A stretch of DNA of 64,000 nucleotides from Antiquaquibacter soli. Lineage in GTDB: Bacteria > Actinomycetota > Actinomycetes > Actinomycetales > Microbacteriaceae. A program made the translations under genes and the position numbers. The stretch is taken from assembly GCF_030580675.1 (NCBI RefSeq), contig NZ_JAUQUB010000002.1, forward strand, positions 248,001 through 312,000, written 5' to 3'. The notes under the pieces were generated by a model. It made no database searches. It worked only from the letters and a program-made list of their open reading frames with translations, and was not told where the DNA came from. This document shows positions 18,347 to 64,000 of the stretch, in pieces; the first letter of the stretch is position 1; each line of letters opens with the position of its first letter.

Positions 18347-18360
18347 CCCCCGAACGGGGG
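18347..18360. promoter_or_regulatory. CCCCCGAACGGGGG palindrome upstream of the giant adhesin
   Basis: One of three sites in the window with the core CCCCCGAACGGG. It lies 126 bp before the adhesin start. A TACCCT (18381-18386) and a TAGCCT downstream are candidate -10s. A second inverted repeat, CCCC-attct-GGGG (18364-18376), follows directly. Confidence 0.6.
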
Positions 18361-18486
18361 CCTCCCCATTCTGGGGAATGTACCCTGCCTCCCGACGGAC
18401 CCTAGCCTGGGGGCGGCAACCCGAATGCCCCAGGGCCCTCACCCCCTGTGCGTCGCGGAAGCCGCACGCTTGGGGGGAAGCACCAC

Positions 18487-21400
18487 ATGAGTTTCATCGG
18501 CTCCAGTCGACGCCGGTCGACCATCGCCGCGCTCGCCGCGCTCATCGGACTCGTCGGCACGCTCGCCATCGGCGCGCCCGCGGTCGCGGACGAGGACGAC
18601 CCGCTCTCGCCGGTCGTCGTCGACATCTCGAAGACCGTCGACAAGGCCCTCATCACGCCGGGCGAGACCGTCACCTACTCGATCGCCGTCAACTGCGCCT
18701 CCACCATGGCCGACTGCGTCAACCTCGCCATCGACGACACGATCCCCGCTCCCCTCGTGCTCGGCTCGGTCGCCCTCCCGACTGGGGGCGAGTCGTCGCT
18801 CGCGACTGTCGCGACCGACCCGGCGACCAACAGCTTCCGCGTGAGCTTCGTCGACGACCTCGGGGAGGGCCGCCGCGGCCTCCAGGCCGGTGTGCTCTTC
18901 AACTTCGCAGTGACGGCGACGCTGCCGACCTCCGTCTCCGCCGACTTCGACGGCCAGACGATCACGAACACGGCGTTCGCGACCCTCGACAACCTCAACA
19001 GCAACAAGGACGACTCCGCCGACGTCGTGCTCGACATCCCGCTCCAGCTGCGATCGAGCGTCGACAAGTCCTACTCGGAGTCCGACGTGCCGTCGGTTCC
19101 GGGGCGCGCGCTGTCGATGTCGCTCTCCGCGTCCAACACGTCCAACATCGGCGTCGACCGGCTGGTGATCGAGGATGCCACGGCCGCCGCGTTCACCCAC
19201 CTGCGCGCCACGGGCCTCTCCGTGCCGACGTGGCCGACGGGTGCCGACGAGGTGCGCGTCGACTGGTTCGACGGGACGGATTGGAGCGAGGGCGCGTTCG
19301 GCGCGACGGCGGTCATCCCCGACGGCGTCGACCCGCGCGGACTCCGTTTCGTGTTCCAGTCGTCGACGGGCGCGCCGCTGCCCCGGGATGCCTCGGCCGT
19401 CGTCTCCGTCGCGCTCGAGCTGCGCGACTCCGTTCTCTCGATCTCGGGCTCGGCGTCGGTGTCGAACGTCGCGAGCTCGTGGGTCGAGCTCGGCGAGGAG
19501 TCGAGCACCCCCGTGTCGAAGCCCGCGAGCATGACGATCACGAAGGCGGAGATCTCGCCCGTCGCGACGAAGAGCTTCTCGACGAACAGCCTCGTCGGCG
19601 GCCGTGAGGTGACCGCGACGCTCGGCGCCTCCAACGGCGGGCGCTTCGACCTCGAGTCGATGGCGATCACCGAGCCCGCGACCGACACCCCCGACCTCAT
19701 CGAGCAGGGCCTGAGCTTCGGCGGCTGGGTGTCGGACGACATCGAGTGGCCGGTGGGGGCGACCGAGGCATCCGTCGCCTACCGGTACGAGGGCCAGGAG
19801 GACTTCGCCGCCGCCGTGTCGACGACGACGCGGGACACGCTCCCGGCGCCGGACGCCGAGGCCGGCCGGGTCGCGGCCTTCATCGTGACGTTCACCGGCC
19901 TCATGCCGCAGTACCAGTACGCGGTCGTGCCGTACACCGCGACGACCTCGGCGGTGGCGGCGGACGAGACGCACTCGAACACCATCCAGGTCGACGTGGA
20001 GACGACGGGCGGTCTGACGGCGTCCACGACCGCCAGCGCGGACCTCACGAGCCGCACCGCGCGCATCAACACGACGGTGCGCAAGATCGCGACCCCCGAT
20101 TCGATCTACTCGGTCGCGGGCTCGTCGTCGATCGTCGTGCTGCCCGCGGCTCTCGACGCGCGCCCGACCTCGCCGTCGGACACCGGCGGCTCGACGGTCG
20201 GCGCCGACTCGCTCGTCGTCGTGGACGACGACGAGGCGTTCTTCGACCTCTTCAACGTCACCTCGATCCTGCCGACGGTCGTGCCCTCGGGTGTGACCCT
20301 GACGGTCGAGTACTTCGACGGCGAGGCCTGGCACTCCTTCGACGGAGTCTCGCCGCTCGCCGGGCCGGCGACGTTCAGCCGCACCCTGTCGGGCGCGGAG
20401 CGCGAGCTCGTCGCGGGCGTGCGCTTCACGTTCACGCCGAGCGACGGCTCCACTCTCGCTCCGGGCTTCGCCGTGCAGCCGAACCTCCGCGTGGCGCTGC
20501 GCTCGACGCTGCGCAGCGACCCGGCCTCGCCCGCCGCGAACCCGGATGCCCCGGCCCTCGTCACGGTCTCCAACACCGCGACCTCGATCGCGACGAGCTC
20601 GAGCGCGACCCCCTCGGAGGTGTCGGACGACGTCGTCGAGACCATCGGGCTGCGCCCGGTGCCGGGCGGGTCGGGCGGCAGTGGCGGCATCCAGCTCGTC
20701 ACCAAGCGCTGGGCCGAGGAGACCCTCCCGGCCCGCACCGGCGAGCGCTCCGACGTCGTCGTCAGCTGGGGCACCGGCAACCTCGAGTTCGAGAGCGTCG
20801 CGGTGAGCGACCCGGCCGACCCCACGACGGGCGTCGCGGGAACCGTCTTCGAGGCCTTCGACCTCGTCGCGGTCAAGCCGATCACGAGCTCGCTCGACCC
20901 CTATCTCACGTACGACGCGGTGACGGCCGTCGAGCTGTACATCGACGGGGAGTGGGTGCCGACGGCGACGAACCCGTGCGCGAGTGGCGCGTGCGACGGC
21001 GCATTCCCGGGCTACACGCTCACCGCCGACGAGCGCGCTGACGCGGTCGGCGTCCGGCTCGTGTTCGAGGAGAGCCCCACCCGCGGCGACCGGATCGGCA
21101 GCGACCCGGATGCCCCGCCCGTGGGCAGTGGCGTGGCATCCACGTTCCAGCTCGACCGCGACATCGCGCTCACGTTCGAGCTGCGCGACGTGCGCCGCTC
21201 GAACCCGGACGTGCCGGTGCTCGGCTCGAGCCGCCTCGCGCTCTACAACGCGGGCCCCGGCGACTACGGCGTCGTGCGCAACACCGCGCGAGTGGTCGGC
21301 ACCGCGACGGATGACTCGACGCGCTCCTCGACGTGGAGCGACGACATCCTCCTGCTCGACCAGGCGCTCACGGTCGTCGCCGGCAAGACCTGGACCGGCG

Positions 21401-24400
21401 GACCCCTCGGCATGCCGCCGGAGGGGACCCCGCAGTCGCTCTTCCCGACCGCGCGCATGACCCTCTCCGCGCAGAACACGTCCCTCGCGCGAGTCGAGCA
21501 CCTGTCGCTCGCGGAGCCGTCGAACCGCGTGACCGTCAACCCGTTCGAGTTCGTGACCCTCACGGACCTCGTGAGCATCCAGGTGCCGAACGGACCCACG
21601 GCGACCGTCACGCTGCAGCCGTCCGGCGCGGAGCTGACGATCGCCGAGGCGCTCCTGCTGACGCGCTCGCAGCTCGCCGACGTCACCGGCTTCGAGGTGT
21701 CCCTCGACGGCGTCGTGCCGGCCGGAGCGACCATCACGGTCGTCGCCGACACGCAGCTGCGGTCCACCGAGCGCACCTCGGGCGACGAGATCGTCGACGC
21801 GCGCCAGCTCGACAACGACGTCGCCGCGACGATCGTCGACCCGGGCGGATCGCAGCTGCCCGCCGAGGGCAGCGACGTCAACGTCGTCACGTCGTACGCC
21901 TCCGCGCACGTCGACATCCAGGTCTTCGAGTACGGCGTCGAGGCGACGAAGACGCTCATCGCCGACACGACGGCGAGCGGCCCCACCCCCGCGACGCAGT
22001 ACGAGTCGACGACGCCGGCCACGGTGCGCCTCACCGGCCAGCCGACGGGCAACGTGCGCACGACGCGCATGGTCCTCGAGGACACCGACCCGTCGTTCTG
22101 GAACGCCTTCGACTTCGTCGGATTCCCGGCGCTGTCGTACTCGACCCCGATCAACCGCGTGCAGGTCGACGCCCTCGTCGGCGTGGAGTACACGGTCGCG
22201 GGCGACGGCTCGATCTCGTGGTCGTGCCCGGAGACGGACTGCTGGGTGACGGGCACGCCGTCCGCGACGCCGACGCTCCCCGCGGGCGTCGATCCTTCGG
22301 AGGTGCGCGGCATCCGCCTCACCTTCACGAAGTCGGACTACTCCGCGTGGGAGCGCCCGTTCAACCCGCTCCAGGTCATCGACCTCACCGTCGAGCGACG
22401 GGAGACTCTCATCGCCCCGGCGGGCGAGCCGGTGCCCACGACGCTCTTCACGTTCACCGAGCCGGCCCCCGGCGAGACCGAGGTGGGCGTCTACACGAAC
22501 GACGTCACGGTCGACGTCGCGGCGGCCCTGAACGCCGAGGACACCGACCCGGTGTGGCAGGCCTCCGACGACGACTCGAGCTCGATCCTCGTGCAGCACC
22601 TCCCGGCGCGCATCTCGATCGTCAAGAGCCAGTACGGCCCTCAGTCGCTCGGCGTGGACATCCCGTTCGACATCACCGTCACCAACACCGGCGGCGCGCA
22701 CGACAGCCCGCTCACGGGCCTCACGATCGTCGATGAGATCCACACGGATGCCTCGGGCCCGCGACTCGTCGTGCCCGTGGACCCCGACACCAACCAGATC
22801 TACACCGCCGACGAGGCGTTCACGTACTCGCTCCTCAACGGCTCGGGTGCCGAGCAGCCGGCGCCGGACGTCACGGCGAGCTACGACGACCCCGAGCATC
22901 CCGCCGTCATCACCTTCGAGCTCGAGCAGCCGCTGCCGCTCGGGTGGAGCCTCGTCATCCACGCCCCGCTGCAGTTCCGCGCGCTCCTCGGCGCGGGTCT
23001 CGAGACCGACAACACCGTCACGGCGACCGCCGACCAGCCGTTCGACGTCTGCCGGGGTGCGGAGGACACCGGCTGGGTTCCCGAGACCTACGAGGTCTTC
23101 ACGTGCGAGGCCTCGACGACCGTGTGGCCGCTGCCGAGCTCGCCCATGACGATCGTCAAGGGCGTCCGCGGCGTGGAGGCGGGACCGCTCGACGAGGACG
23201 GCGTGCCGCTCGTCGACCCCGACACCGGACTGCCCTTCGACGACCTGGGCGTGCTGCGCACCTCGGGCACCTCGAGCTGCGAGGAGCCGACGACGGCGAT
23301 CCCGGGCCGCTCGGAGCTGTTCTACCGCTTCCCGTGCGTGCCGATCACCCGGCCCGGCGCGGAGGAGGAGTGGGGCGCCCGCTTCTTCAACTCGGGCAAC
23401 ATCTCCATCAAGCAGCTCGTCGCGATCGACGTCCTGCCGGCCCCGAACGACCGCGGCGTCATCATCGACGAGGCGCGCTCCTCGAAGTGGGCGGCGAAGC
23501 TGTCGAGCTACCCCGAGGTCACGGGCATGCCCGACGGCTCGACGTACACGGTCTACTACACCGACCAGGCGGGCGTCGCGACGCCCAACTGCAACGGCGC
23601 GGACATCCAGCTCACCATGGGCATGACGACGGCGACCAACCCGCCCATCCTCAACACGGCGCAGTACCGCAACTGCCTCGCCGCGGACGGCGCGTCGCTC
23701 CTCGCCCCCCGCGAGTGGAAGGTGCTCGACCCGGGCGCGGATGCCGCGACCCTCGCGTCCGTCGTCGCCCTCAAGTTCGACGTGCGCATGCCGTCGGGAC
23801 TCGAGCCGGGCAACTCGGTCGGCGTGCTCTACTCCACGGTGACCGCGAACCAGCAGGCGATCAAGGAGTCGACGGGCAACCTGTTCCGCGACTCGATCGC
23901 CTACAACTCGATCGCGGGGGCCGCGGTCGGCATCAACCACGACTCCGAGGGCAACCCGCTCGACCTCGCGTACCGCTTCGTCACCGAGCCGCGCAAGGTC
24001 GGCGTCGCGCTCGCGACCGGTCAGCTCACACTCTCCAAGAGCATCACGGGGGATGCCGCGGCCTACGCCACCGACGTCTTCAACCTCGCCGTGAGCTGCA
24101 CCTCGAACGACGAGCCGGTCGCACTCACCCTCGCGGACGGCTCCCCGCGCAGCCCGTTCGCGGTCACCGCGGGCTCGCCGCTGAACGTCTACGGCATCCC
24201 GCTGTACTCCGACTGCACCGTCGGGGAGACAGGCTCGTACGGGGCGACGACGGTGACGACTCCCGGCGCCCCGGTGCCCGTGCTCGCGCAGCCGAACTCG
24301 GGCACGTCCACCGTCTTCGACCCGCACCCCGCCTTCGAGGACCGGCCGGCCCCCGAGGTCGCGACCGTCACCAACGACTACCCGGATGCCCAGCTCACGA

Positions 24401-27400
24401 TCACCAAGTCGGTGACCACGAACGGCGCCGTCGACCAGGACGGCACCCCGATCGCGTACCTCGCCGCGCTCGTCACGGCGAGCTGCTCGTTCGACAACGG
24501 GACCGGGTCGCGCGTCATCTGGTCGATCACGAACGAGCCGGTGACCCCGTCGGCGCCGATCGTCAAGACCGGCCTGCCCGCGGGTGCGGTCTGCACCGTG
24601 ACCGAGTCCAACCAGCGCGGGGCGACGACGACCTCGACCGTCTCGACGACGGGAGCGACGGATGACGCGACCGTCGCGCCGTTCACCCTCGCGGAGGACG
24701 GCAACACCGTCGCCTTCGCCAACGACTTCGGCGTCGGATCGCTCACGGTGACGAAGGCGCTCGCCGGACTCGCGAAGGACTCCGACTGGGCCGCCGGGCC
24801 GTTCGACATCCGCGTCGTGTGCACGAACTCGAACGCGACCTCGACGACGGTCTTCGCGAAGACGTTCTCGGTGACCCGCACGTCGCCGTCCTTCACGATC
24901 GACAACCTCGCGACGGGCTCGAGCTGCGCGATCACCGAGCCGCAGAAGAACGGCGCGACGTCGACGACCCTGCCGTCGAACGTCACGATCACCCGGTCCT
25001 CCTCGAGCGCGACCGTCACGAACACGTTCGACTTCGCGCGCCTCACCGTGAGCAAGACCGTGACGACGAACGCCGTCGACGGTGCGGGCGCGGCGACGCG
25101 CCCCGGCCCGTTCGACTTCTCCGTCACGTGCACGTTCACCCACGCCGGGACGACCGACACGGTGCTCGCGACCGGCTTCTCGGCGAGCCCGATGACGTTC
25201 TCGCTCTCGCACGGCCAGAGCCGCGCGCTCACCGGCCTGCCCGCGGGCAGTTCCTGCACCGTGACGGAGGCGACCCCGCCCGGCTCGCCGACGACGACCA
25301 TCCGCACGCAGACCGCGACGGTCGGCGCGACGACGACGACGGGTCTCTCGGCGACGATCTCCTCCCTCACCCCCGACTCCTCGCCGACGACCGGCACGAA
25401 CACTGCGCTCGTCACGAACACCTACCCGGTGGGCACGCTGCGCATCGTGAAGTCGCTGCAGGGCGGGGCGAGCACCCAGTTCGGCACGGGCCCGTTCACG
25501 TTCCTCGTGACGTGCACGCAGCCGGGCATGAGCTCGGGCTACTCGAAGACGGTGACGCAGAACACCGCGGGCACGACCAACGTGACCAACATCCTCGCGG
25601 GCTCGGTCTGCTCGGTGTCTGAGTCGAACTTCTCGTCCACCGGCGCCGACGCGCTCGTCTACCTCAACAACTCGGGCACAGCGTTCGACGGCACCGGCAC
25701 GACGATCGTCGGCTCGGCGACCCGGCAGGTGACGGTGCAGAACTGGTACCTCACGGGCCAGGTCACGGTCACCAAGCAGGTCGAGGGGCCGGCCGCCTCG
25801 TACGGCACCGGACCGTTCACCGTCCACCTCGACTGCACCCGCGACGGCAAGACGGTGACGATCGCGGGCGGCGCTGACCGCACCCTCACGAACGGCTCGT
25901 CGACGACGTACACGCTGCTGCCCTCCGGCGCGCTGTGCACGCTGTCCGAGCCCGGCTCGTTCGGCGCCGGCGAGATCACGATCACGGATTCCGAAGGCAC
26001 CTTCGGTCCGGCCGACGATTTCGACTTCGTCGTCGACGTGGATGCCTCGAGCCGCACCGACAACCAGGTGCAACCCGCACTGACCCTCACCAACCACTAC
26101 GAGTTCGCGTCGCTGACCATCGAGAAGCACGTCGTGAGCGACGCGGAGCACGAGGACGGCTCGCTCGTCGAGTACGGCGCGTTCGGCTTCACCGTCGAGT
26201 GCACGTTCGAGGGCGCCGCCGTGCGCGCGACCGGCTTCTCGGTCAACGCCATGGCGTTCACCCTCGAGGACGGCCAGTCGCGCACCCTCACGGGTCTCCC
26301 GGCGGGTGCCGAGTGCGCGGTCACGGAGAGCGACCCGCGCGGCGCCGCCGTGACCACGATGGCGACGGTCGACCTCGACGGCTCCCGCAGCACCGACGCC
26401 ACCACCGTCGACGTGGTTCTCGCACCCGACTTCGGCGACGAGACCCGCAACACGGTGTCGGTCACCAACACGTACCGGTCGGGCATCCTGACGCTCTCGA
26501 AGGCCTTCACCGGCGACGCCCGACTGACGTGGGGCTCGGGCCGCACTGCCGTCGTCGACCTCGAGTGCCGCCTCGGCGGGCCGACGGGCCAGGTCGTCTG
26601 GGAGGACACGTTCGAGTTCACGGACGGATCGCCGACCTACGAGATGGCGCCCGTCGCCGCCGGGGCCGAGTGCGCGGTCATCGAGTCCGACACGGCGGGA
26701 GCGACGGCGACGAGCATCCTCGTGGGCAGCACGTCGACGGCGGGCACGAGCGCGACCGCGACGATCCCCGCGGACTCCCTGCTCGCCGTGACCGTCTCCA
26801 ACCGCTACGACTTCGCGAGCCTGACGGTGTCCAAGACGGTGCTCTCCGACGCCGAGGACCAGGACGGCGAACCCGTCTACCCGGGCGGCTCGTTCGCGGT
26901 CGCCGTGGAGTGCTCCTTCCTCGGCGAGACGGTGCTCGCGACCGGCTTCGACACCTCGCCGATGACGTTCTCGCTCGGCCACCTCGGCTCGCAGACCCTC
27001 ACGGGGCTGCCCGCGGGCGCCTCGTGCGCCGTGACCGAGACGGACACCGTCGAGGCTGCGTCCACGTCGATCGCGACCGCCACGTCGGCCGTGTCCGCGT
27101 CGACGGATGACACGACCGCGACGATCGCCTCGGTCACGAGCGACTCCGCCGGTGCCGCGACGAACTCCGCCGCGATCACCAACCGGTACGGCATCGGCAG
27201 CCTCACGGTCGAGAAGATCCTCGAGGGCGGCGCCGCCGCGCAGTACGGCGACGGACCGTTCGACATCCACGTCGAGTGCGTCGCCGCCGGTGGAGTGACG
27301 GCGTTCGACGACACCGTCTCGCTGCCGATCGGCAACTCGTGGTCGACGACGATCGAGTCGATCCCCGTCGGATCCGTGTGCGAGATCGAGGAGACCAACG

Positions 27401-30400
27401 CGGGCGACACGGGCGCCGACGCGCACCGAGTGGTGGATGCCGCGGGCGATCCCGCGACGAGCACCACCGTCGGCCTCGAGGAGCCCGGCTACCTCGCCGT
27501 CGAGAACTTCTACCTCACGGGCTCCGTCGAGGTCTCCAAGACCGTCACCGGCGCCGGCGCCCACTACGGCGACGGCCCCTTCGAGGTGAGCCTCGAGTGC
27601 GTGCGCGACGGCGAGACCGCCGTGCTGCCGGGCGGCGCGACGCGATCGATCGTCGACGGTGAGACCGTGACGTACACCGGCCTTCCCTCGGGCGCCGAGT
27701 GCACCCTCACCGAGTCGGATGTCGCGGGAGCAGCATCCACGTCGCTGCGGGTCGGCGACGCCGAGGTCGCGGCCGACGCGACCGAGGGCTACTCGTTCAC
27801 GGTCTCGGTCGACGCCGAGTCCCTCGACGACGACCAGCCCCAGCCGGCGATCGAGGTCGTCAACGACTTCCCGCTCGCGGGCCTCGATGTCAGCAAGGTC
27901 GTCGAGACCGAGGCGCGCTCGGGCGATTCGGCGGTGGCCTACGGCCCGTTCGAGGTCGCCGTCGAGTGCACGTTCCTCGGCGAGCCGGTGTGGGCGACGG
28001 GCTACGACGCCGAGTCGCCGATGGTCGCCTCGCTCGAGTCGGGCGCGTCTCCGTGGCAGCTGCGGGGCCTCCCGACGGGCGCCGAGTGCCTCGTCGAGGA
28101 GACCCAGACGATGGATGCCGATGCCACGGTCATCACCGTGACCCAGGCCGGGGCATCCGACGACACCGACGGGGCGAGCGTCACGATCGTGCTGGACGCG
28201 AACGAGGACGGCGCCGCCACCAACGAGGCCGTGATCACGAACAGCTACGAGTCCGGCAGCATCGAGCTCTCCAAGCTAGTGACCGGTGCCGGCGCCGAGG
28301 CGTGGGGCACGACCGACTTCGAGATCGAGGTCGTCTGCTCGCTCACGGATGCCTCGGGCACGCGGCCGATCCTCGGTGCGACCTACCCGTTCACCGCCTC
28401 GAGCGAGCCCGTCGTCATCCCGAACCTGCCCGCCGGAACCCTCTGCACCATCGAGGAGACCGCGACGGGCGCCGCGACCGCGACGACGATCACGGTCGGC
28501 GACGAGGAGCCGACGCCGGGCACGACCGCGCAGGTGACGGTGCCCGCGGGCCAGATCGCGGTGGCCGTCGAGAACCGTTTCGACGTGACGTCGATCGCGG
28601 TCGACAAGCAGATCACCGGCGAGGGTGCCGAGGCGTGGGGTCAGAACGACTTCGAGGTGACCCTCGTGTGCTCGCGCGACGTGGACGGCGACACCGAGGA
28701 GATCGCGATCCCCGGCGGTGCGACCCGCGACCTCGTGGCGCCCGACTACGCGGCCTCGTTCGACGACCTGCCGGTCGGTGCGGACTGCGCGATGACCGAG
28801 TCCCGCTTCGGCGGCGCGAACGGCTCGGCGGTCTCGCCGAACGTCTTCACCCTCGACGCGGAGCAGACCGAGGTCACCGTGACGAACGAGTTCCGCCTCG
28901 GCGACCTGCGCGTGACCAAGGAGATCGAGGGCGACGGGGTCGGCATCGAGGACTCCGACGGCGAGTGGGGCTTCGGTCCGTTCGAGGTGTCCCTCGAGTG
29001 CGAGCGGTCGGTGAACGGCGAGGTCGTCGCGGTCGAGGTGCCCGGCGGCGCCACGCGCACGCTCGAGTCGCCCGAGTATGTCGCGACCTACTCGGGCCTG
29101 CCGGCCGGCGCGGTGTGCGTCGTGACCGAGTCGGTCGACGGGGATGCCTCGAGCTCGAGCGTCGACCCGGGTGCGATCGCGATCGTGGCCGACGAGACCG
29201 TCGACGTCACCGTCACGAACACCTTCACCATCGGCCAGCTGCAGATCGTCAAGACCGCCTCGACGCCGATCGTCGAGGGCGCCGAGTCGTTCGACTACTC
29301 CTTCGCGGTCTCGAACACGGGCACCGTACCGGCCGCGGGCATCACCGTGGTCGACGAGATCCCGGCGCTGCTGCGGGTCACGGGCATCGACGCGAGCGGC
29401 TGGAGCGAGTGCGCCGTCGACGGCACCGACGAGAACGGCTACGGCGGCACGCTCACGTGCGTGTTCGACGAGCCGCTCGCGGCGGGAGCATCGGCGACCC
29501 CGTTCTCGATCACCGTCGAGGTGCTGCCCGAAATCGCCGTCGACTCGATCCTCAACGCCGCTTCCGTCACCTCGACGACTCGCGGGGTGACGGGCGACGA
29601 CGACGACGAGACGGTGCTCGTGAAGTGGCTCGACGCCACGGCCGCGTCGGAGTGCGTCCTGGACGCGCCGTGGTTCGACTACTCCATCGACGCCCGCAAC
29701 CTCGACACGACCGGCCGCACCCTCACGGTGACGTGGCGCGACGGCACCGGGGCTGTCGTGGAGACCGACGAGGTGCCCCTCGACGGCGGACCCATCGAGG
29801 GCCGCCTGCTGTGGCCGGGCGCCGAGGTGAACGACGACGGCATCGGCGTGATGTGGCCTGGCTATCGCCCGGCGCGCGCCGGTGAGACGCCCACGTGGGA
29901 GAACCTCGTGCTCGACCCGACGCTGCCGACCTACGGGTTGCGCTCGGGCGCCGAGATCGAGCTCGCCATCAACCCCGAGACGACGGTCACCGTCCAGTAC
30001 CCGGAGGCGACCCCGGAGTGCGCCGTCGAGCGCGAACCGGGCCTGTGGGTCGAGAAGACGGCATCCGGCGCGATGATCCCGGCGGGCGGCGAGTTCGACT
30101 ACACGATCTCGGTCGGCAACGACGGGCTCGGCGCGGTCACCGGGCTCACCCTCGTCGACGAGCTGCCGAAGGAGACCACGCTCCTCGCCATCGAGACCAA
30201 CACCCCGGACAGCGCCGACGACCCCGCGTGGGAGTCGTGCACCCACGACAAGCCGCTCGCGGGAGGCGCTGGCGGAGTGGTCACGTGCGTGCTCGACCGC
30301 CCGCTCGGCTGGGGCCAGTCGGTGCCCGACGTCGTGCTCACGGTGCGCCTCGGCGCCTCCGTCCCGGCCGGCAGCGTCACGAACGTCGTGCACGTCGAGG

Positions 30401-30585
30401 CTGTCTCCGCCGCCGCGGGAGAGGCCGAGCTCGCCGCCGAGAGCTCCGCGCTCATCCTGACGCCGGGGATGCTCGCCCTCACCGGCTCCAGCATCGCCGC
30501 GTTCGTGCTGCCGACGGCAGTCGGCCTCATCGTCCTCGGCGGGGTCGTGCTCGTGGCACGGTCCCGGCGTCGCCGGACCAGCTAG
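18487..30585 (+). CDS. giant surface adhesin-like protein with DUF11 and about 15 DUF5979 modules, LAxTG-anchored
   Basis: A 4032-residue secreted wall-anchored protein taking 19% of the window. Signal peptide about 1-33 (basic start, LAALIGLVGTLAIGAPAVA). Residues about 35-1845 are DUF11-like beta-sandwich domains (for example ISKTVDKALITPGETVTYSIAVN). About 1845-3580 hold some 15 DUF5979 modules of about 115 residues, each with L-x-V-x-K near its start, two Cys, G-P-F, LPAGAxCxVTE in the middle and V-T-N-x-Y/F at the end. Two DUF11-like units follow, then LALTG, a hydrophobic helix and an RRRR tail: a class-E-type sortase signal. The ATG at 18487 has a GGGGGGAAG ribosome site. Surface fibre or adhesion function inferred. 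Confidence 0.9.
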   Translation: MSFIGSSRRRSTIAALAALIGLVGTLAIGAPAVADEDDPLSPVVVDISKTVDKALITPGETVTYSIAVNCASTMADCVNLAIDDTIPAPLVLGSVALPTGGESSLATVATDPATNSFRVSFVDDLGEGRRGLQAGVLFNFAVTATLPTSVSADFDGQTITNTAFATLDNLNSNKDDSADVVLDIPLQLRSSVDKSYSESDVPSVPGRALSMSLSASNTSNIGVDRLVIEDATAAAFTHLRATGLSVPTWPTGADEVRVDWFDGTDWSEGAFGATAVIPDGVDPRGLRFVFQSSTGAPLPRDASAVVSVALELRDSVLSISGSASVSNVASSWVELGEESSTPVSKPASMTITKAEISPVATKSFSTNSLVGGREVTATLGASNGGRFDLESMAITEPATDTPDLIEQGLSFGGWVSDDIEWPVGATEASVAYRYEGQEDFAAAVSTTTRDTLPAPDAEAGRVAAFIVTFTGLMPQYQYAVVPYTATTSAVAADETHSNTIQVDVETTGGLTASTTASADLTSRTARINTTVRKIATPDSIYSVAGSSSIVVLPAALDARPTSPSDTGGSTVGADSLVVVDDDEAFFDLFNVTSILPTVVPSGVTLTVEYFDGEAWHSFDGVSPLAGPATFSRTLSGAERELVAGVRFTFTPSDGSTLAPGFAVQPNLRVALRSTLRSDPASPAANPDAPALVTVSNTATSIATSSSATPSEVSDDVVETIGLRPVPGGSGGSGGIQLVTKRWAEETLPARTGERSDVVVSWGTGNLEFESVAVSDPADPTTGVAGTVFEAFDLVAVKPITSSLDPYLTYDAVTAVELYIDGEWVPTATNPCASGACDGAFPGYTLTADERADAVGVRLVFEESPTRGDRIGSDPDAPPVGSGVASTFQLDRDIALTFELRDVRRSNPDVPVLGSSRLALYNAGPGDYGVVRNTARVVGTATDDSTRSSTWSDDILLLDQALTVVAGKTWTGGPLGMPPEGTPQSLFPTARMTLSAQNTSLARVEHLSLAEPSNRVTVNPFEFVTLTDLVSIQVPNGPTATVTLQPSGAELTIAEALLLTRSQLADVTGFEVSLDGVVPAGATITVVADTQLRSTERTSGDEIVDARQLDNDVAATIVDPGGSQLPAEGSDVNVVTSYASAHVDIQVFEYGVEATKTLIADTTASGPTPATQYESTTPATVRLTGQPTGNVRTTRMVLEDTDPSFWNAFDFVGFPALSYSTPINRVQVDALVGVEYTVAGDGSISWSCPETDCWVTGTPSATPTLPAGVDPSEVRGIRLTFTKSDYSAWERPFNPLQVIDLTVERRETLIAPAGEPVPTTLFTFTEPAPGETEVGVYTNDVTVDVAAALNAEDTDPVWQASDDDSSSILVQHLPARISIVKSQYGPQSLGVDIPFDITVTNTGGAHDSPLTGLTIVDEIHTDASGPRLVVPVDPDTNQIYTADEAFTYSLLNGSGAEQPAPDVTASYDDPEHPAVITFELEQPLPLGWSLVIHAPLQFRALLGAGLETDNTVTATADQPFDVCRGAEDTGWVPETYEVFTCEASTTVWPLPSSPMTIVKGVRGVEAGPLDEDGVPLVDPDTGLPFDDLGVLRTSGTSSCEEPTTAIPGRSELFYRFPCVPITRPGAEEEWGARFFNSGNISIKQLVAIDVLPAPNDRGVIIDEARSSKWAAKLSSYPEVTGMPDGSTYTVYYTDQAGVATPNCNGADIQLTMGMTTATNPPILNTAQYRNCLAADGASLLAPREWKVLDPGADAATLASVVALKFDVRMPSGLEPGNSVGVLYSTVTANQQAIKESTGNLFRDSIAYNSIAGAAVGINHDSEGNPLDLAYRFVTEPRKVGVALATGQLTLSKSITGDAAAYATDVFNLAVSCTSNDEPVALTLADGSPRSPFAVTAGSPLNVYGIPLYSDCTVGETGSYGATTVTTPGAPVPVLAQPNSGTSTVFDPHPAFEDRPAPEVATVTNDYPDAQLTITKSVTTNGAVDQDGTPIAYLAALVTASCSFDNGTGSRVIWSITNEPVTPSAPIVKTGLPAGAVCTVTESNQRGATTTSTVSTTGATDDATVAPFTLAEDGNTVAFANDFGVGSLTVTKALAGLAKDSDWAAGPFDIRVVCTNSNATSTTVFAKTFSVTRTSPSFTIDNLATGSSCAITEPQKNGATSTTLPSNVTITRSSSSATVTNTFDFARLTVSKTVTTNAVDGAGAATRPGPFDFSVTCTFTHAGTTDTVLATGFSASPMTFSLSHGQSRALTGLPAGSSCTVTEATPPGSPTTTIRTQTATVGATTTTGLSATISSLTPDSSPTTGTNTALVTNTYPVGTLRIVKSLQGGASTQFGTGPFTFLVTCTQPGMSSGYSKTVTQNTAGTTNVTNILAGSVCSVSESNFSSTGADALVYLNNSGTAFDGTGTTIVGSATRQVTVQNWYLTGQVTVTKQVEGPAASYGTGPFTVHLDCTRDGKTVTIAGGADRTLTNGSSTTYTLLPSGALCTLSEPGSFGAGEITITDSEGTFGPADDFDFVVDVDASSRTDNQVQPALTLTNHYEFASLTIEKHVVSDAEHEDGSLVEYGAFGFTVECTFEGAAVRATGFSVNAMAFTLEDGQSRTLTGLPAGAECAVTESDPRGAAVTTMATVDLDGSRSTDATTVDVVLAPDFGDETRNTVSVTNTYRSGILTLSKAFTGDARLTWGSGRTAVVDLECRLGGPTGQVVWEDTFEFTDGSPTYEMAPVAAGAECAVIESDTAGATATSILVGSTSTAGTSATATIPADSLLAVTVSNRYDFASLTVSKTVLSDAEDQDGEPVYPGGSFAVAVECSFLGETVLATGFDTSPMTFSLGHLGSQTLTGLPAGASCAVTETDTVEAASTSIATATSAVSASTDDTTATIASVTSDSAGAATNSAAITNRYGIGSLTVEKILEGGAAAQYGDGPFDIHVECVAAGGVTAFDDTVSLPIGNSWSTTIESIPVGSVCEIEETNAGDTGADAHRVVDAAGDPATSTTVGLEEPGYLAVENFYLTGSVEVSKTVTGAGAHYGDGPFEVSLECVRDGETAVLPGGATRSIVDGETVTYTGLPSGAECTLTESDVAGAASTSLRVGDAEVAADATEGYSFTVSVDAESLDDDQPQPAIEVVNDFPLAGLDVSKVVETEARSGDSAVAYGPFEVAVECTFLGEPVWATGYDAESPMVASLESGASPWQLRGLPTGAECLVEETQTMDADATVITVTQAGASDDTDGASVTIVLDANEDGAATNEAVITNSYESGSIELSKLVTGAGAEAWGTTDFEIEVVCSLTDASGTRPILGATYPFTASSEPVVIPNLPAGTLCTIEETATGAATATTITVGDEEPTPGTTAQVTVPAGQIAVAVENRFDVTSIAVDKQITGEGAEAWGQNDFEVTLVCSRDVDGDTEEIAIPGGATRDLVAPDYAASFDDLPVGADCAMTESRFGGANGSAVSPNVFTLDAEQTEVTVTNEFRLGDLRVTKEIEGDGVGIEDSDGEWGFGPFEVSLECERSVNGEVVAVEVPGGATRTLESPEYVATYSGLPAGAVCVVTESVDGDASSSSVDPGAIAIVADETVDVTVTNTFTIGQLQIVKTASTPIVEGAESFDYSFAVSNTGTVPAAGITVVDEIPALLRVTGIDASGWSECAVDGTDENGYGGTLTCVFDEPLAAGASATPFSITVEVLPEIAVDSILNAASVTSTTRGVTGDDDDETVLVKWLDATAASECVLDAPWFDYSIDARNLDTTGRTLTVTWRDGTGAVVETDEVPLDGGPIEGRLLWPGAEVNDDGIGVMWPGYRPARAGETPTWENLVLDPTLPTYGLRSGAEIELAINPETTVTVQYPEATPECAVEREPGLWVEKTASGAMIPAGGEFDYTISVGNDGLGAVTGLTLVDELPKETTLLAIETNTPDSADDPAWESCTHDKPLAGGAGGVVTCVLDRPLGWGQSVPDVVLTVRLGASVPAGSVTNVVHVEAVSAAAGEAELAAESSALILTPGMLALTGSSIAAFVLPTAVGLIVLGGVVLVARSRRRRTS
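24019..29230 (+). repeat. tandem DUF5979 modules with A-D-A-B-C higher-order order
   Basis: Modules begin near residues 1845, 1969, 2084, 2185, 2317, 2425, 2542, 2667, 2777, 2904, 3013, 3131, 3257, 3368 and 3473. By sequence subtype, modules 2-13 read A-D-A-B-C-A-D-A-B-C-A-D. Equivalent modules are 573-592 residues apart. Marks include ATGF...SPMTFSL for A, (S/D)TGADA and (Q/E)N(W/F)YLTG for B, TYT-LPSGA-C and D-DNQVQPA or DDDQPQPA for C. Confidence 0.75.
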
Positions 30586-50763: not shown

Positions 50764-50788
50764 CGTTTCCCGATCCGCAACCCCTTGC

Positions 50789-50802
50789 CCCCCGAACGGG
50801 GG
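50789..50802. promoter_or_regulatory. CCCCCGAACGGGGG palindrome upstream of the secreted glycoamylase-like gene
   Basis: Identical 14-mer to the site at 18347-18360. It ends 40 bp before GTG 50843, at about the -35 region if CATGCT (50804-50809) is the -10. Confidence 0.6.
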
Positions 50803-50842
50803 TCATGCTTGCCTGAGAGCACGGAGAACAAGGGAGTTTCCA

Positions 50843-52387
50843 GTGCGCTCACGATTCCGCATCCTCGTGCCCACCGTGCTCGCCGCGGTCGCGCTCGTCG
50901 CCACCCCGCTCGCCGCCCACGCGGGCGGAGGCGGCCATCCCGACGGCGACGTCGCCACCCTCGAGCGCTACGCCGCGGACACGTGGGCGTCTCTCGTGGC
51001 GATGACCGACGAGGCGACCGGCCTGCCGTCCGACAACATCGAGGGCGACCTCTCGGCGCCGTCCGCGTACACGTCGCCGACGAACATCGGCGGCTACCTG
51101 TGGTCGACAGTCGTCGCCCGCGACCTCGGCATCATCGACCGCCACGAGGCGCGCGACCGGCTGACGACGACGCTCTCGACTCTCGCCTCCCTCGAGAAGC
51201 ACGAGCCGAGCGGCATGTTCTACAACTGGTACTCGCCGGCGGACGGCTCGAAGCTCACGACCTGGCCGGACAGCGGCGACGTCGTGCATCCCTTCCTCTC
51301 CACCGTCGACAACGGCTGGCTCGCCGCCGCTCTGCGCGTGGTGGCGAAGGCGGAGCCGAGCCTCAAGCGCGAGGCGCTCGCCCTCTACGACGCGATGGAC
51401 TTCTCGTGGTTCCACGACCTGAGCGCCCGCGAGGGCGTGAGCCTCAACCGCGGTGGCTTCTGGGTGGACCCGCCGGGCGACGGATGCGCGGTGCCCGGCA
51501 ACTACGCGGGCTCCGGGCCCGACGTCTACTACACGTGCCACTGGTACGACACGACGGTGAGCGAAGCGCGCATCGCGACCTACATCGGCATCGCCAACGG
51601 CCAGATCCCCGCGACCGCCTATTACGGCACGTACCGCACGATGCCCGACCAGGGCTGCGACTTCGGCTGGCAGGAGCAGAAGCCCGTCGGCGAGACCCGC
51701 GAGTACCTCGGGGTCAGCGTCTTCGAGGGAACGTACGAGTATGCGGGGATGCGCCTCGTGCCGTCGTGGGGCGGCAGCATGTTCGAGGCCCTCATGCCCG
51801 ACCTGTTCGTGCCCGAGGCCGAGTGGGGGCCGAGGTCGTGGGGCCTCAACCACCCGGCGACCGTGGAGGCGCAGCGCTGGCACGGCATGGAGGAGGCCGG
51901 CTACGGCTACTGGGGATTCTCGCCCGCGAGCGACCCGTTCGCGTCCTACCGCGAGTACGGGGTCGAGCACCTCGGGATCAGCTCCGACGGCTACGCGAGC
52001 GACGCCGAGTCGACGGACGTCGACACCGGGTACGAGGGATGCCGCGACGCGACCAATCCCGACCCCGCCTTCGGCGACGGCGTCGTGACGCCGCACGCCG
52101 CCTTCCTCGCCCTTCCCTACGACGAGGATGCCGTGCTCGAGAACCTCGCCGGGCTCGAGAACGACCTCGGCGCGTACGGTCCGGGCGGGTTCTACGATGC
52201 GGTCGCGGTGGGCAGCGGCACGATCGCGGACCGGTACCTGTCGCTCGACCAGTCGATGATCATGGCCGCGATCGGCAATGCGCTGCTCGATGACCGGCTC
52301 AAGGACTACTTCGTCGACAAGCGGTTCGAGCGAGCCATCCGACCGCTCGTCGAGGCGCAGGTCTTCGGCACCGTGCTGGTTCCCTGA
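50843..52387 (+). CDS. secreted glycoamylase-like/DUF3131-type protein
   Basis: A 514-residue secreted protein. Signal peptide about 1-27 (VLAAVALVATPLAAHA, then Gly-rich GGGGHP). The catalytic-like alpha/alpha-barrel carries YTSPTNIGGYLWSTVVARDLG, EPSGMFYNWYSPADGSK, FLSTVDNGWLAAALRVV and RSWGLNHPATVEAQ, patterns shared with glycoamylase-like domains (PF10091; GH144-type beta-1,2-glucanases) and cyclic-glucan synthase modules. Acidic residues are present but the pair used for catalysis cannot be named. A role in trimming or making surface glucan is inferred. GTG start with GGGAG 7 nt upstream. Just upstream of rpoB. Confidence 0.75.
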   Translation: MRSRFRILVPTVLAAVALVATPLAAHAGGGGHPDGDVATLERYAADTWASLVAMTDEATGLPSDNIEGDLSAPSAYTSPTNIGGYLWSTVVARDLGIIDRHEARDRLTTTLSTLASLEKHEPSGMFYNWYSPADGSKLTTWPDSGDVVHPFLSTVDNGWLAAALRVVAKAEPSLKREALALYDAMDFSWFHDLSAREGVSLNRGGFWVDPPGDGCAVPGNYAGSGPDVYYTCHWYDTTVSEARIATYIGIANGQIPATAYYGTYRTMPDQGCDFGWQEQKPVGETREYLGVSVFEGTYEYAGMRLVPSWGGSMFEALMPDLFVPEAEWGPRSWGLNHPATVEAQRWHGMEEAGYGYWGFSPASDPFASYREYGVEHLGISSDGYASDAESTDVDTGYEGCRDATNPDPAFGDGVVTPHAAFLALPYDEDAVLENLAGLENDLGAYGPGGFYDAVAVGSGTIADRYLSLDQSMIMAAIGNALLDDRLKDYFVDKRFERAIRPLVEAQVFGTVLVP

Positions 52388-60188: not shown

Positions 60189-61184
60189 TCAGCCCGCGAG
60201 CACGACGTCGCGCCGCTGCATCCCTAACCCGTCCACGAGGATCGTGGCGATCTCGTCGCGTCCCTCGGGCAGCAGCCGGGCGACGACGCGACCGTCCGTC
60301 GCCGACCGCAGCGCCTCGGCGACGCGCGAACGCACCGAGTCGAGCACGGCGGGGTCGGCCTCGGCCGGGTAGAGATCGTCGAGGAGGACCACCTCGATCC
60401 CTCGGCGGCGGGCATCCCGTGCCGCCTCGACCACCTCGGGGGCGACGAGGGCCCGAGCGCGAAGCCCGTCCCTCAGCTGCGCCTCCGCGACCGCGAAGTC
60501 GAGGCGGTCCTCGGCGGTGAGCGGCTCCCCGCTGACGATCCGCGCGAGCAGGGGAGTGGCGATCGCGTCGAGCTCCGCGAGCCGGGCGTTGCGCTCGGCC
60601 GTCGTGGCGAGCTGCGCTGCTTCGACGGCGGCCCGCGTCGACGTCTCAGCGCTCAGTCGGAGGATGCTCGCCGACGTGCGTCGCAGCCCGTAGACGAACA
60701 GCGTGCTCACGAGCAGGATGGGCAGCTGCTTGCCGATGAGCAGGACCGCGACAACGGGCCCGAAGCCCATCGAGACGGTGGCGGCGGCGATCACGGCGGA
60801 GAGCGCAGCGAAACCCAGCCACGAGATGACCTGGCGTCCGCGCAGACCGACGAAGAACATGCTCACGGTGCCGGCGCCGTAGTACCACTGCGAGTGCCCA
60901 CCCGGCTCGCGAAGCTGCCAGGAGATGAGGACGGCGGTTGCGACCCACGCCGCGGCCACGACGATCGCGGTCGTCCGCGACATCGGCTCGGCGCGGTCGA
61001 GGGTGAGCAGCACTCCCACGGCGACGAGGATCGCGATCCCGTGGAGGGTCGGCAGGGGTGAGACGACCTCGTCGAGGGACCACAGGGCGAGCGCCGCCAT
61101 CGTCACCACGTAGCCCCAGATGAGCACCCGCGTGCCCGGGCCGGTGAGGGCGACGAGCTCGAGGCGCTGCGCCGCGGGGCTCAC
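60189..61184 (-). CDS. membrane protein of a two-component operon, lacking a kinase ATPase domain
   Basis: A 331-residue protein. Four or five hydrophobic segments in the first half (VLIWGYVVTMAALALWS, GIAILVAVGVLLTL, TAIVVAAAWVATAVLI, VISWLGFAALSAVIAA, LLIGKQLPILLVSTLFVYGL), then a coiled region (STRAAVEAAQLATTAERNARLAELDAIATPLLARI) and a soluble tail. No HATPase motifs (N-box, DxGxG) follow. Its GTG at 61184 overlaps the kinase stop (61181-61183). It resembles the kinase in layout but has lost the catalytic part; sensing or a regulatory partner role is inferred. Confidence 0.75.
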   Translation of the reverse strand: MSPAAQRLELVALTGPGTRVLIWGYVVTMAALALWSLDEVVSPLPTLHGIAILVAVGVLLTLDRAEPMSRTTAIVVAAAWVATAVLISWQLREPGGHSQWYYGAGTVSMFFVGLRGRQVISWLGFAALSAVIAAATVSMGFGPVVAVLLIGKQLPILLVSTLFVYGLRRTSASILRLSAETSTRAAVEAAQLATTAERNARLAELDAIATPLLARIVSGEPLTAEDRLDFAVAEAQLRDGLRARALVAPEVVEAARDARRRGIEVVLLDDLYPAEADPAVLDSVRSRVAEALRSATDGRVVARLLPEGRDEIATILVDGLGMQRRDVVLAG

Positions 61185-62392
61185 GATTCGCTCCAGCCGA
61201 GTGCGACGACCGTTCCGCTGCCCGGACGGCTGCTCACCGCGGCACGACCGCCGGGGAGCGCGGCGAGGCGGCCCTGGATGCTCACCGGGATGCCGAGGCG
61301 GTGGGGTGCGACATCCCGCGGGTCGAAGCCGCGACCGTCGTCCTGCACGATCACCTCGACGCCCGAGTCCGTGAGCACGACGTTGACCGCGCGATGGCGC
61401 GCTTCGGGGGCGTGGGTGAGACTGTTGCGCGCGGCCTCCGCGGTCGCCTCCGCGAACGCCTCCGCCACAGCTCCGGGAATGGACTCGGTCCGCGAGCCGT
61501 GCTGCGAGAACGCGAAGGCGAGGGAGGCGTCGAGGACCACGGAGCGGATGCGCGAGACGAAGGTCGCCGCATCCACCTCGCCGCTGCTCTCGGGCCGGCC
61601 GAGTCTGAGCGCCTCGAGCTGCGCGAGCGCGTCGGCCGCTTGCGACCGCACGCTCGCGAGCAGGGACCCGTCGTCTCGCGAGGCGTAGAACAGGGTGCTC
61701 ATGACCTCGTCGTGCACGAGCGCATCGAGCCGGGCCTGCTCCTGGGCCCGGGCGGTCGCGGCCGCCGACCTCGCCGCCGTCTCGCGGAGCTCCGCCGTGG
61801 CCGCATCGACGATGGCCGCGTTGCGCAGAGATACGCTCGCGAGGGCGGTGAAGAGCCCCGCGAGAGTCACGGTGAGCAGGGCGTACTGGAGCGGCACGAC
61901 GAGGTCGGTGCCGTCGAGGGAGATGTAGCGCACGACGCCCACGACCGCGGCGTTCAGCAGGAGGTACGCCCACGCGATCCAGGCACGCCACGCGATCGTC
62001 GCCGGGACCGAGCCGAGCGCCGTCATCTCGAGCACCCAGGGGTTGAGGTTGCCCGGCGTGGAGTGGTCGAGCGCCGGCAACCACGCGAGCTGCACGACGA
62101 CGAAGACGATGGCGTAGATGCCGTGAGCGATGCGGATGCCCGGCATCGGCACGAGGAACGTGACGACCGCCACGAACCCCAGTCCCCCGAAGATCGCGCC
62201 GGCCGCGAACGGGGTGTACCACGGCTGCAGGTAGGACGCGGCGTCGAGCATCCCGCCGACGGCCGTGCCGCCCAGCAGCAATGCCGCGGCCGCGGTCACG
62301 ACGGTGATGGTGCGCGCGACGCGCTCCTCAGCGTGCGGGCCGAACCCGTCGAGCGCACCGAGGCGCTGACGCTCCGCGGTGGCGGCGCTCAT
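61181..62392 (-). CDS. sensor histidine kinase (NarX/DesK-type, HisKA_3)
   Basis: A 403-residue membrane kinase with about six hydrophobic helices up to residue 195. The phosphoacceptor region reads QARLDALVHDEVMSTLFYA (His near 228). N-box EATAEAARNSLTHAPE and the G1 motif VIVQDDGRGFDPRD are present, with LGIPVSIQGRLAALPGGRAAVSSRPGSGTVV as the lid/G2. All catalytic features look intact. It phosphorylates the NarL-type regulator whose stop overlaps its start (ATGA). The signal is unknown; a membrane or envelope stimulus is likely. Confidence 0.92.
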   Translation of the reverse strand: MSAATAERQRLGALDGFGPHAEERVARTITVVTAAAALLLGGTAVGGMLDAASYLQPWYTPFAAGAIFGGLGFVAVVTFLVPMPGIRIAHGIYAIVFVVVQLAWLPALDHSTPGNLNPWVLEMTALGSVPATIAWRAWIAWAYLLLNAAVVGVVRYISLDGTDLVVPLQYALLTVTLAGLFTALASVSLRNAAIVDAATAELRETAARSAAATARAQEQARLDALVHDEVMSTLFYASRDDGSLLASVRSQAADALAQLEALRLGRPESSGEVDAATFVSRIRSVVLDASLAFAFSQHGSRTESIPGAVAEAFAEATAEAARNSLTHAPEARHRAVNVVLTDSGVEVIVQDDGRGFDPRDVAPHRLGIPVSIQGRLAALPGGRAAVSSRPGSGTVVALGWSES

Positions 62393-63051
62393 TGCTCGGG
62401 GGCGGGCAGGATGCCGTCCTCCACGGCCCGCTTGTAGAGGTCCACCTTGGTGTGGGCCGGTCGGCCGGCGATGGCGTACTTGTAGCGGATGCGGCGGACG
62501 TACTCGGCGACGGTTCCGGTCGAGAGCCCGGCGCGGTTCGCGACCGTCACCGACTTGTCCCCGCCGGCGTAGAGCGCGAGCACCTCGCGCTCTTTGGGGC
62601 TGAGTCCCGCGGAGGCCAGCAAGGGGTCGGCGTCGAGGGCCGCCGCCCACTCGGTGGTGGCGACGGTGACGCCGCGCGCCGCGCTGCGCACCGCCTCGAC
62701 GATGGTGTCGCGCGACTCGGACTTGCGGACGATGCCGAGCACGCCGCCCCGCGACGCGGTGCGCAGCTCGGCGGCGTTGTCGGCAGCGGTGAAGGCGAGT
62801 ACCCGCGCCCCGGCGGCGTGCAGCACGGAGAGGTTGTGCGCGATCGTCGACCCGTCGGAGAGGCGGATGTCGAGGACGACGAGATCGAGAGTCGGCACGA
62901 TCGGCAGGATGTCGTCGACTCGGGTCGAGGACTGCACGAGGTGGAGATCCTCAGCGCCGGCGAGGAGGGAGGCGAAGCCGAGCTGCACGGTCTCGTGATC
63001 GTCGACGTGCGCGATGCGCAGCGCGCGCACCCGCTCGGACTCTCGCGACAT
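62389..63051 (-). CDS. NarL/LuxR-type response regulator
   Basis: A 220-residue response regulator. Receiver residues are intact: IAHVDDHETV acidic pair, phosphoacceptor Asp in LVVLDIRLSDGS, Thr in AFTAADN and Lys in IVRKSESRD. The C-terminal LuxR helix-turn-helix reads LSPKEREVLALYAGGDKSVTVANRAGLSTGTVAEYVRRIRYKY, an actinobacterial variant. First gene of the operon; GGGAGGGG ribosome site. A near-perfect 26-bp palindrome containing CCCCCGAACGGG lies 53 bp upstream, so autoregulation and a link to the same site before two surface genes is plausible. Confidence 0.92.
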   Translation of the reverse strand: MSRESERVRALRIAHVDDHETVQLGFASLLAGAEDLHLVQSSTRVDDILPIVPTLDLVVLDIRLSDGSTIAHNLSVLHAAGARVLAFTAADNAAELRTASRGGVLGIVRKSESRDTIVEAVRSAARGVTVATTEWAAALDADPLLASAGLSPKEREVLALYAGGDKSVTVANRAGLSTGTVAEYVRRIRYKYAIAGRPAHTKVDLYKRAVEDGILPAPEQ

Positions 63052-63103: not shown

Positions 63104-63129
63104 CACTGACCCCCGAACGGGTGTCAGTG
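63104..63129. promoter_or_regulatory. 26-bp palindrome with the CCCCCGAACGGG core, between the response regulator and the 130-residue gene
   Basis: Outer arms CACTGAC (63104-63110) and GTCAGTG (63123-63129) pair perfectly; the inner part is CCCC-GAAC-GGGT. Eleven of 13 base pairs match. The same core occurs at 18347-18360 and 50789-50802. It lies between divergent genes, the response regulator (-) and the small Cys protein (+). Confidence 0.7.
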
Positions 63130-63201: not shown

Positions 63202-63594
63202 GTGAATCGCCCCGCCATAAACGACCTCCTGGGCGGAATCCTGTCCGGATGGTACGAGTCCATCGCCGAGTGGATGCCGCCCGGCCAGTGGGGTGCCGAC
63301 ACGTGCGCCCTGTGCCGCACCTCCCTCCTCGCTGACTGCGTCGAGACCTCCGAGTGGCCCCACGAACTCATCCACCAGCTCGCCTCCACCCTCGAGTCGC
63401 TGAGCCTGCAGGTGTTCGACTCACTGACCGTGAACGGCTCCTTCGAGGAGGTGCGCGAGTACATCGCCTCGCGCGTCCGAGACAGCGCCGACGACCTGCG
63501 GGACGTGCTCGCCGAGTGCGTCGAGCCCCGGGTCGAGGCCTGGGCTCAGGGGGAGCTCGAGCGGGGTCTCGTCAGGGTCGACCTCTTGTCCTGA
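63202..63594 (+). CDS. 130-residue protein with a CxxC cluster, unknown
   Basis: A GTG-started protein: VNRPAINDLLGGILSGWYESIAEW, then ADTCALCRTSLLADCVETSEW with a CxxC plus a third Cys that could bind a metal or form a disulfide, and an acidic helical C-terminal half ending VRVDLLS. No signal peptide or membrane helix. ACGGAGC 8 nt upstream is the ribosome site. No recognised family. It lies across the palindromic site from the response regulator and 183 bp before a PilB-type gene; a role in pilus or envelope control is possible but not shown. Confidence 0.6.
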   Translation: MNRPAINDLLGGILSGWYESIAEWMPPGQWGADTCALCRTSLLADCVETSEWPHELIHQLASTLESLSLQVFDSLTVNGSFEEVREYIASRVRDSADDLRDVLAECVEPRVEAWAQGELERGLVRVDLLS

Positions 63595-63777: not shown

Positions 63778-64000
63778 ATGGCGTCGCTCACCGAGATCCT
63801 CATCCTGCGCGGCGTCATGCCGATCGAGAGCCTCGACAGCATGTCGGGTGCCGCCGACGAGGAGAGCACGGTCCGTGACCTGCTCGAGCGCGGAGTGCTC
63901 ACCGAGGTCCAGCTGGCCTCCGCTCGAGCCGCGCTCGTGGGTCTTCCGTTCGTCGAACTTCTCGACTTCGCCGTCGACCAGCGCGCGGTCTCCCTCGTCC
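63778..64000 (+). CDS. PilB/GspE-type secretion or pilus ATPase, N-terminal part (runs off the right edge)
   Basis: About 74 codons. The start (MASLTEILILRGVMPIESLDSM) and VRDLLERGVLTEVQLASARAALVGLPFVELLDF match the MshEN/GspE N-terminal domain found in PilB and type II ATPases. The ATPase core is outside the window. GGGGGTGAAAG before the ATG is a ribosome site. In actinobacteria such genes head type IV pilus-like or Tad-like loci. Family good; system type not decidable from this fragment. Confidence 0.8.
   Translation, partial: MASLTEILILRGVMPIESLDSMSGAADEESTVRDLLERGVLTEVQLASARAALVGLPFVELLDFAVDQRAVSLV

Follow-up and report, generated by a model that had tools for sequence, protein, structure and literature searches.

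A 20-bp palindrome at a type IV pilus locus of Microbacteriaceae is a predicted binding site of a NarL-type response regulator and recurs before exported-protein genes

The window, i.e. the whole stretch of 64,000 nucleotides that was analysed, closes with a gene group that has a common order in the genus: rpoC, then on the reverse strand a second membrane protein, a histidine kinase and a NarL-type response regulator, and then a divergently transcribed CxxC protein and pilB (Table 1). Twenty further genus genomes carry an ortholog of the regulator with 68-84 % identity, and pilB was found in 16 of these 20 loci, the flanks of which were short. The GerE/LuxR DNA-binding domain of the regulator scored 28.2 bits, above the cut-off of 23.5, and in its receiver domain Asp18, Asp61, Thr88 and Lys110 were invariant and Asp17 nearly so among 19 aligned orthologs. 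The C-terminal tail TKxDLYKRAxEDG, which follows the helix-turn-helix (62389-62460 of the window), was conserved in the 20 sequences compared. In the translated kinase, inspected by eye, the N-terminal half is hydrophobic and the stretches LVHDEV and DDGRGF are present, and a kinase homolog lies beside the regulator at 19 of the 20 other orthologs. None was found at the remaining locus (L064 of G012, positions 2-2175); there rpoC homology comes directly after the regulator, with no kinase genes between, and the palindrome described below is retained. The second membrane protein of the cassette had no Pfam match at E values up to 5 and looks like a sensor without a kinase domain. The CxxC protein had none at E values up to 0.001, and the label Cys-rich, given to it in the first-pass annotation, does not suit a protein with just 4 Cys among its 130 residues.

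Table 1. Features of the window and further sites of the own genome. Scores in bits are from the matrix of regulator-side sites; proteins at the sites on contigs C1, C7 and C8 were named by eye unless stated.
Feature	Position	Strand	Details
14-mer ahead of giant adhesin, matching the 20-bp site weakly	18347..18360		9.0 bits, tenth in 424 kb
Another palindromic element, CCCCnTTCTGGGGnATGTnCCC, in the adhesin promoter	18364..18385	+	four bases past the adhesin 14-mer
Secreted adhesin-like giant protein of 4032 aa, marginal as a target	18487..30585	+	DUF5979, DUF7601, DUF11 repeats
Palindrome copy before glycoamylase	50786..50805		24.4 bits, rank 2 in 424 kb
Secreted glycoamylase-like protein, predicted target	50843..52387	+	Pfam Glycoamylase and DUF3131
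Second membrane protein of cassette, no recognisable kinase domain	60189..61184	-	homologs beside most regulators
Membrane histidine kinase, likely regulator partner	61181..62392	-	HATPase_c
NarL-type response regulator, predicted palindrome binder	62389..63051	-	Pfam Response_reg and GerE
20-bp palindrome, predicted operator	63107..63126		between regulator and CxxC-protein genes; 28.3 bits, top in 424 kb
130-aa CxxC protein, divergent from regulator, predicted target	63202..63594	+	homolog at 20/20 other genus orthologs
pilB-type ATPase gene start, predicted target together with CxxC gene	63778..64000	+	T2SSE and MshEN domains; continues past window
144-aa membrane protein	C1:1969414		27.3 bits, 11 nt to start
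Secreted protein	C7:93034		25.7 bits
Substrate-binding lipoprotein	C1:1892965		20.5 bits
Small secreted protein	C1:246333		16.8 bits
Substrate-binding lipoprotein	C1:734549		16.5 bits, TTG start
Secreted nucleotidase-like protein	C7:16662		16.2 bits
Secreted IPT/TIG-like protein	C7:396908		14.5 bits
LacI	C8:42767		12.6 bits
58-aa membrane protein	C1:1798929		11.6 bits
Secreted protein	C1:165997		10.1 bits
Permease	C1:1332385		5.3 bits

The first-pass annotation had pointed to a short core shared by the regions upstream of a giant adhesin gene, a glycoamylase-like gene and the regulator. This holds: with both strands searched, the window has the 12-mer CCCCCGAACGGG at just three places, 18347-18358, 50789-50800 and 63110-63121, compared to a mean of 0.06 copies in shuffled windows, none of 100 shuffles reaching three. 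Two of the three 14-mers around it are indeed identical and the third has one mismatch. When up to two mismatches were allowed, the 14-mer matched at seven places against a shuffle mean of 2.15, and seven was reached in 2 of 100 shuffles. The 26-bp palindrome claimed at 63104-63129 is present as well, with 11 of its 13 pairs complementary, and its conserved part is 63107-63126. In the own genome (3.22 Mb in 14 contigs; 69 % G+C in the genome sample) the 12-mer was found 12 times and the 14-mer CCCCCGAACGGGGG seven times, compared to 1.8 and 0.11, respectively, expected from a second-order Markov model built from 360 kb of that genome, and the reversed-pattern controls of both gave no match. 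All seven 14-mers were intergenic according to a crude codon-usage gene caller, which had a training set of eight genes and fails where the genome is less G+C-rich; the motif is thus not one that is common at random. Three of the remaining five 12-mers (L003, L005, L006) were coding-like by eye. The pattern CCCCCGnnCGGGGG was found at nine places, with an AA or TT centre in seven.

All 20 other genus orthologs of the regulator gene have TGACACCCGTTyGGGGGaCA or a variant of it upstream. Because these variants agree in at least 10 of 12 positions before every one of the genes, the real conserved unit is the 20-bp palindrome TGnCnCCnnWWnnGGnGnCA around the reported core rather than the 14-mer. 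Among 100 regulator upstream stretches (20 from the genus and 80 from named loci, the organisms partly overlapping and L142 being without upstream DNA) the best match was at least 11/12 in 42 and at least 10/12 in 59, compared to 0 and 2 of the reversed controls, with a 12-position pattern derived partly from these very data. A stricter pattern, derived from the genus only, matched at least 12/14 in 13 of 66 regulator loci, nearly all of them from other genera, with one match each for the reversed pattern and for the gene interior as controls, and at least 11/14 in 26, with controls of 5 and 8, respectively. The palindrome is also found at many, not all, Cryobacterium regulators and at some other loci; in four Cryobacterium loci (L112, L113, L117, L120) the operon is followed by pilB. 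With one mismatch allowed, the 20-mer occurred at 19 places of the own genome and was thus rarer than its reversed control (59 places). The 12 of 14 such places that were examined comprised 5 coding and 7 intergenic ones, and an exported neighbour was not present at every intergenic one.

A symmetric scoring matrix was made from aligned regulator-side sites of other genomes (29 sites, 27 of them distinct) and was used to scan 424 kb, made up of the window plus 360 kb from elsewhere in the own genome. The regulator site and the glycoamylase site ranked first and second, and the next place scored 14.1 bits. With an Infernal model of the same sites, in which partial matches are allowed, the top match in the window was the regulator site; ranks two and three went to the glycoamylase site and ranks four and five to that of the adhesin. 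The glycoamylase site ends 38 nt upstream of the start codon. The glycoamylase gene was found in 3 of 27 genus genomes (E up to 1e-30) and the site is kept in all three as CCCCC-nnnC-GGGGGT following CCTTG, so that conservation in relatives, which had been left for checking, applies to this site as well as to that of the regulator. The 80 kb read in G022 and in G023 contained the core CCCCCnWWnGGGnG at the regulator and the glycoamylase alone, and a looser 20-mer was found at one additional place in the same 80 kb of G022. A directional element, such as a sigma-factor or RNA element, was considered since the own 14-mers seemed to have a single orientation, and was rejected as the centre is flipped before the same gene in G023.

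The remaining own-genome sites of Table 1 come from the exact motifs and from an Infernal search of the whole genome in which 150 of 1450 candidates were scored, and the list is thus a set of candidates rather than a census. Of 11 own sites (the seven 14-mers and four further exact 20-mers), nine adjoin the start of a gene for an exported or membrane protein, i.e. one with a hydrophobic N-terminus or a membrane segment, compared to 40 of 120 control gaps in which a gene starts (Fisher P 0.002); the controls were scored fully automatically, and four of the nine starts (C1:246333, C1:1332385, C1:734549, C7:93034) were shifted by eye against the gene caller, which favours the result. The other two sites belong to the LacI gene and to the regulator/CxxC pair.

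The strict consensus TGnCnCCCnWWnGGGnGnCA was found at 29 places in the genus, compared to two for the reversed pattern. Sixteen of these are at the regulator and two are further ones in G000. Four (G001, G006, G011, G026) precede a large secreted protein, the context having been read for three of them and that of G011 assigned by its identical site, and one (G018) precedes a 2502-aa PKD/laminin-G protein that begins similarly. Single places lie before the CxxC gene (G008), between pilC-like and pilin-like genes (G013, named by eye), before a cytoplasmic-looking gene (G016) and at a position without gene assignment (G024). The remaining two (G015, G020) precede a Ser/Thr-kinase-like gene, named by eye; at both loci (L196 and L183, respectively, 1501-1520) the full-consensus palindrome is 61 nt from this gene, and in L183 a phosphatase-like gene, also named by eye, adjoins it. 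Throughout the family, matches were found in 62 of 299 genomes, at about 76 places compared to about 19 for the reversed pattern by hand tally. Thirty of these loci were read; three are at the regulator, five (L252, L261, L264, L267, L269) lie before a start that is signal-peptide-like by eye, and many have no gene assigned to them. The exact 14-mers of L022, L023, L025 and L031 (G004, G008, G015 and G020, respectively) have partly conserved, CCCCCGAACGGGGGTgTTcCTGCGG-like flanks and are about 3 kb from a 42-43 % paralog of the regulator, with a carboxylase-like gene nearby in L022 and L025.

The idea that the giant adhesin is a conserved target was rejected. A search with its first 504 residues gave homologs in 13 of 27 genomes, the own one included, and 12 upstream stretches, again with the own one, were read (the match of G019 and a second one of G012 were left out). 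The 14-mer was absent before all 11 other homologs, and its score before the own adhesin is near background in the regulator-derived matrix. Looser palindromes matching 9-10 of 12 positions were seen before some homologs (L226, L227, L228, L230, L231, L236), and the model gave weak matches alone at these upstream regions. No adhesin homolog was found in the 80 kb around the glycoamylase of either G022 or G023. The element CCCCnTTCTGGGGnATGTnCCC is common to the adhesin upstream regions of five genomes (G000, G004, G007, G008, G014); a genus scan with two mismatches found it at 8 places in 6 genomes, i.e. the five and three elsewhere, and gave one reversed match. It is likely the better conserved control element of the adhesin family, and the own adhesin may answer to it. 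As a target of the regulator the giant adhesin is at best marginal and the link is doubtful.

According to the most probable alternative, two motifs have been mixed, the 20-bp TGnCnCC...GGnGnCA of the regulator and a bare CCCCC-nWWn-GGGGG read by another factor before the adhesin, LacI, permease and 58-aa-protein genes. These four sites score 9.0, 12.6, 5.3 and 11.6 bits, respectively, the adhesin homologs have a different palindrome in common, and in relatives some exact 14-mers precede unrelated and non-exported genes (hisS-like, GntR, LacI). On the other hand, the sites of the glycoamylase (24.4 bits) and of one lipoprotein (20.5 bits) combine the 14-mer with the 20-bp ends or nearly so, and the two motifs therefore grade into each other. 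We consider such a mixture possible but rather unlikely.

It is less likely still that the palindrome is a promoter element of the CxxC-protein and pil genes that is bound by a regulator encoded elsewhere and lies next to the response-regulator gene by coincidence. This would account for the copy between the pil-like genes of G013 and for G008, in which rpoC and the CxxC gene have no regulator cassette between them while the palindrome is kept there with 24.5 bits (L193, 1049-3019). However, G008 still carries a 51 % relative of the regulator elsewhere. No site was found within the 1.5-kb flanks of this relative, which tells against the regulator as the reader of the palindrome. In Cryobacterium a different gene, as judged by eye, precedes the regulator and the sites are nonetheless present before it, while no CxxC homolog was found within these regulator loci. 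Furthermore, diverged palindromes of similar span (TGCCCCGG-nnnn-CCGGGGCA; AGTCCTCAATTnTGAGGGCA) lie before the regulators of L130, L133, L148 and L149, and we infer that they have co-evolved with the regulator. Since the site is kept at the CxxC gene of the cassette-less G008, the palindrome would serve the CxxC/pil side in addition to the regulator. The G008 locus is in itself a natural case of gene removal. That the sites are hairpins or terminators of a G+C-rich genome, with no protein reading them, is very improbable: C5-GAAC-G5 could give a stem of five pairs in a genome of this composition, but the seven copies greatly exceed expectation and are located before gene starts, and the glycoamylase site has the centre GAAC in G000 but GTTC in G023.

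We regard it as probable that the NarL-type regulator binds to the palindrome at 63107-63126; by way of copies of this site it would control its own operon, the CxxC/pil genes, the glycoamylase gene and several exported-protein genes. The presence and rarity of the site, its conservation at the regulator and the glycoamylase, and its placement before exported-protein genes are direct observations. In the proposed mechanism the membrane kinase encoded next door would phosphorylate the regulator at Asp61, a dimer of the phosphorylated regulator would bind the two TGnCnCC half-sites, and the regulator operon, the CxxC/pil genes and the exported-protein genes would then change as a group. The distances from site to start codon, 11 to about 130 nt, fit either activation or repression. 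The idea of a surface regulon put forward in the first-pass annotation is largely supported by the conserved regulator and glycoamylase sites and the copies before exported-protein genes, with binding by the regulator predicted from sequence, but its adhesin member falls near background. In Salinibacterium-like bacteria the regulator would thus likely switch pili and other cell-surface proteins together. More tentatively, the cassette of regulator, kinase and kinase-domain-less sensor at the Microbacteriaceae type IV pilus locus could be a surface-remodelling switch in which the 20-bp operator is fixed and the giant surface proteins and secreted enzymes under its control are exchanged between lineages, i.e. 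the glycoamylase and other secreted proteins here and giant PKD/laminin-G proteins in relatives. The outcome is a single regulator with a single 20-bp site and a brief ranked list of targets, which, if true, would show co-ordination of pili and secreted proteins in little-studied actinobacteria.

By title and abstract, open-licence PMC articles on type IV pili and response regulators of Salinibacterium and Microbacteriaceae did not include this system, and the motif CCCCCGAACGGGG was absent from the open-licence PMC full texts searched. Among known systems, MacRS of Streptomyces coelicolor likewise consists of a NarL-type regulator and a membrane kinase. A review (PMC9739842) describes membrane proteins and lipoproteins as direct targets and the binding consensus as established. 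The kinase described here matched the NCBIfam MacS model weakly, with 46.3 bits against a cut-off of 300. The NCBIfam cut-off for MadR was not reached either (41 against 300 bits). The MacR binding consensus is TGAGTACnnGTACTCA, another sequence than the 20-bp palindrome, and the third gene and the pilus-locus setting belong to the present system. Relatives by sequence with solved structures in the PDB are DevR, VraR, ChrA, NarL and DesR (E 7e-18 to 2e-13), which share the receiver and GerE domains. The DevR site is a palindrome of about 20 bp containing GGG/CCC. The present system differs from these five in its half-site TGnCnCC, in its operon, in its predicted targets and in the conserved tail TKxDLYKRAxEDG after the DNA-binding domain.
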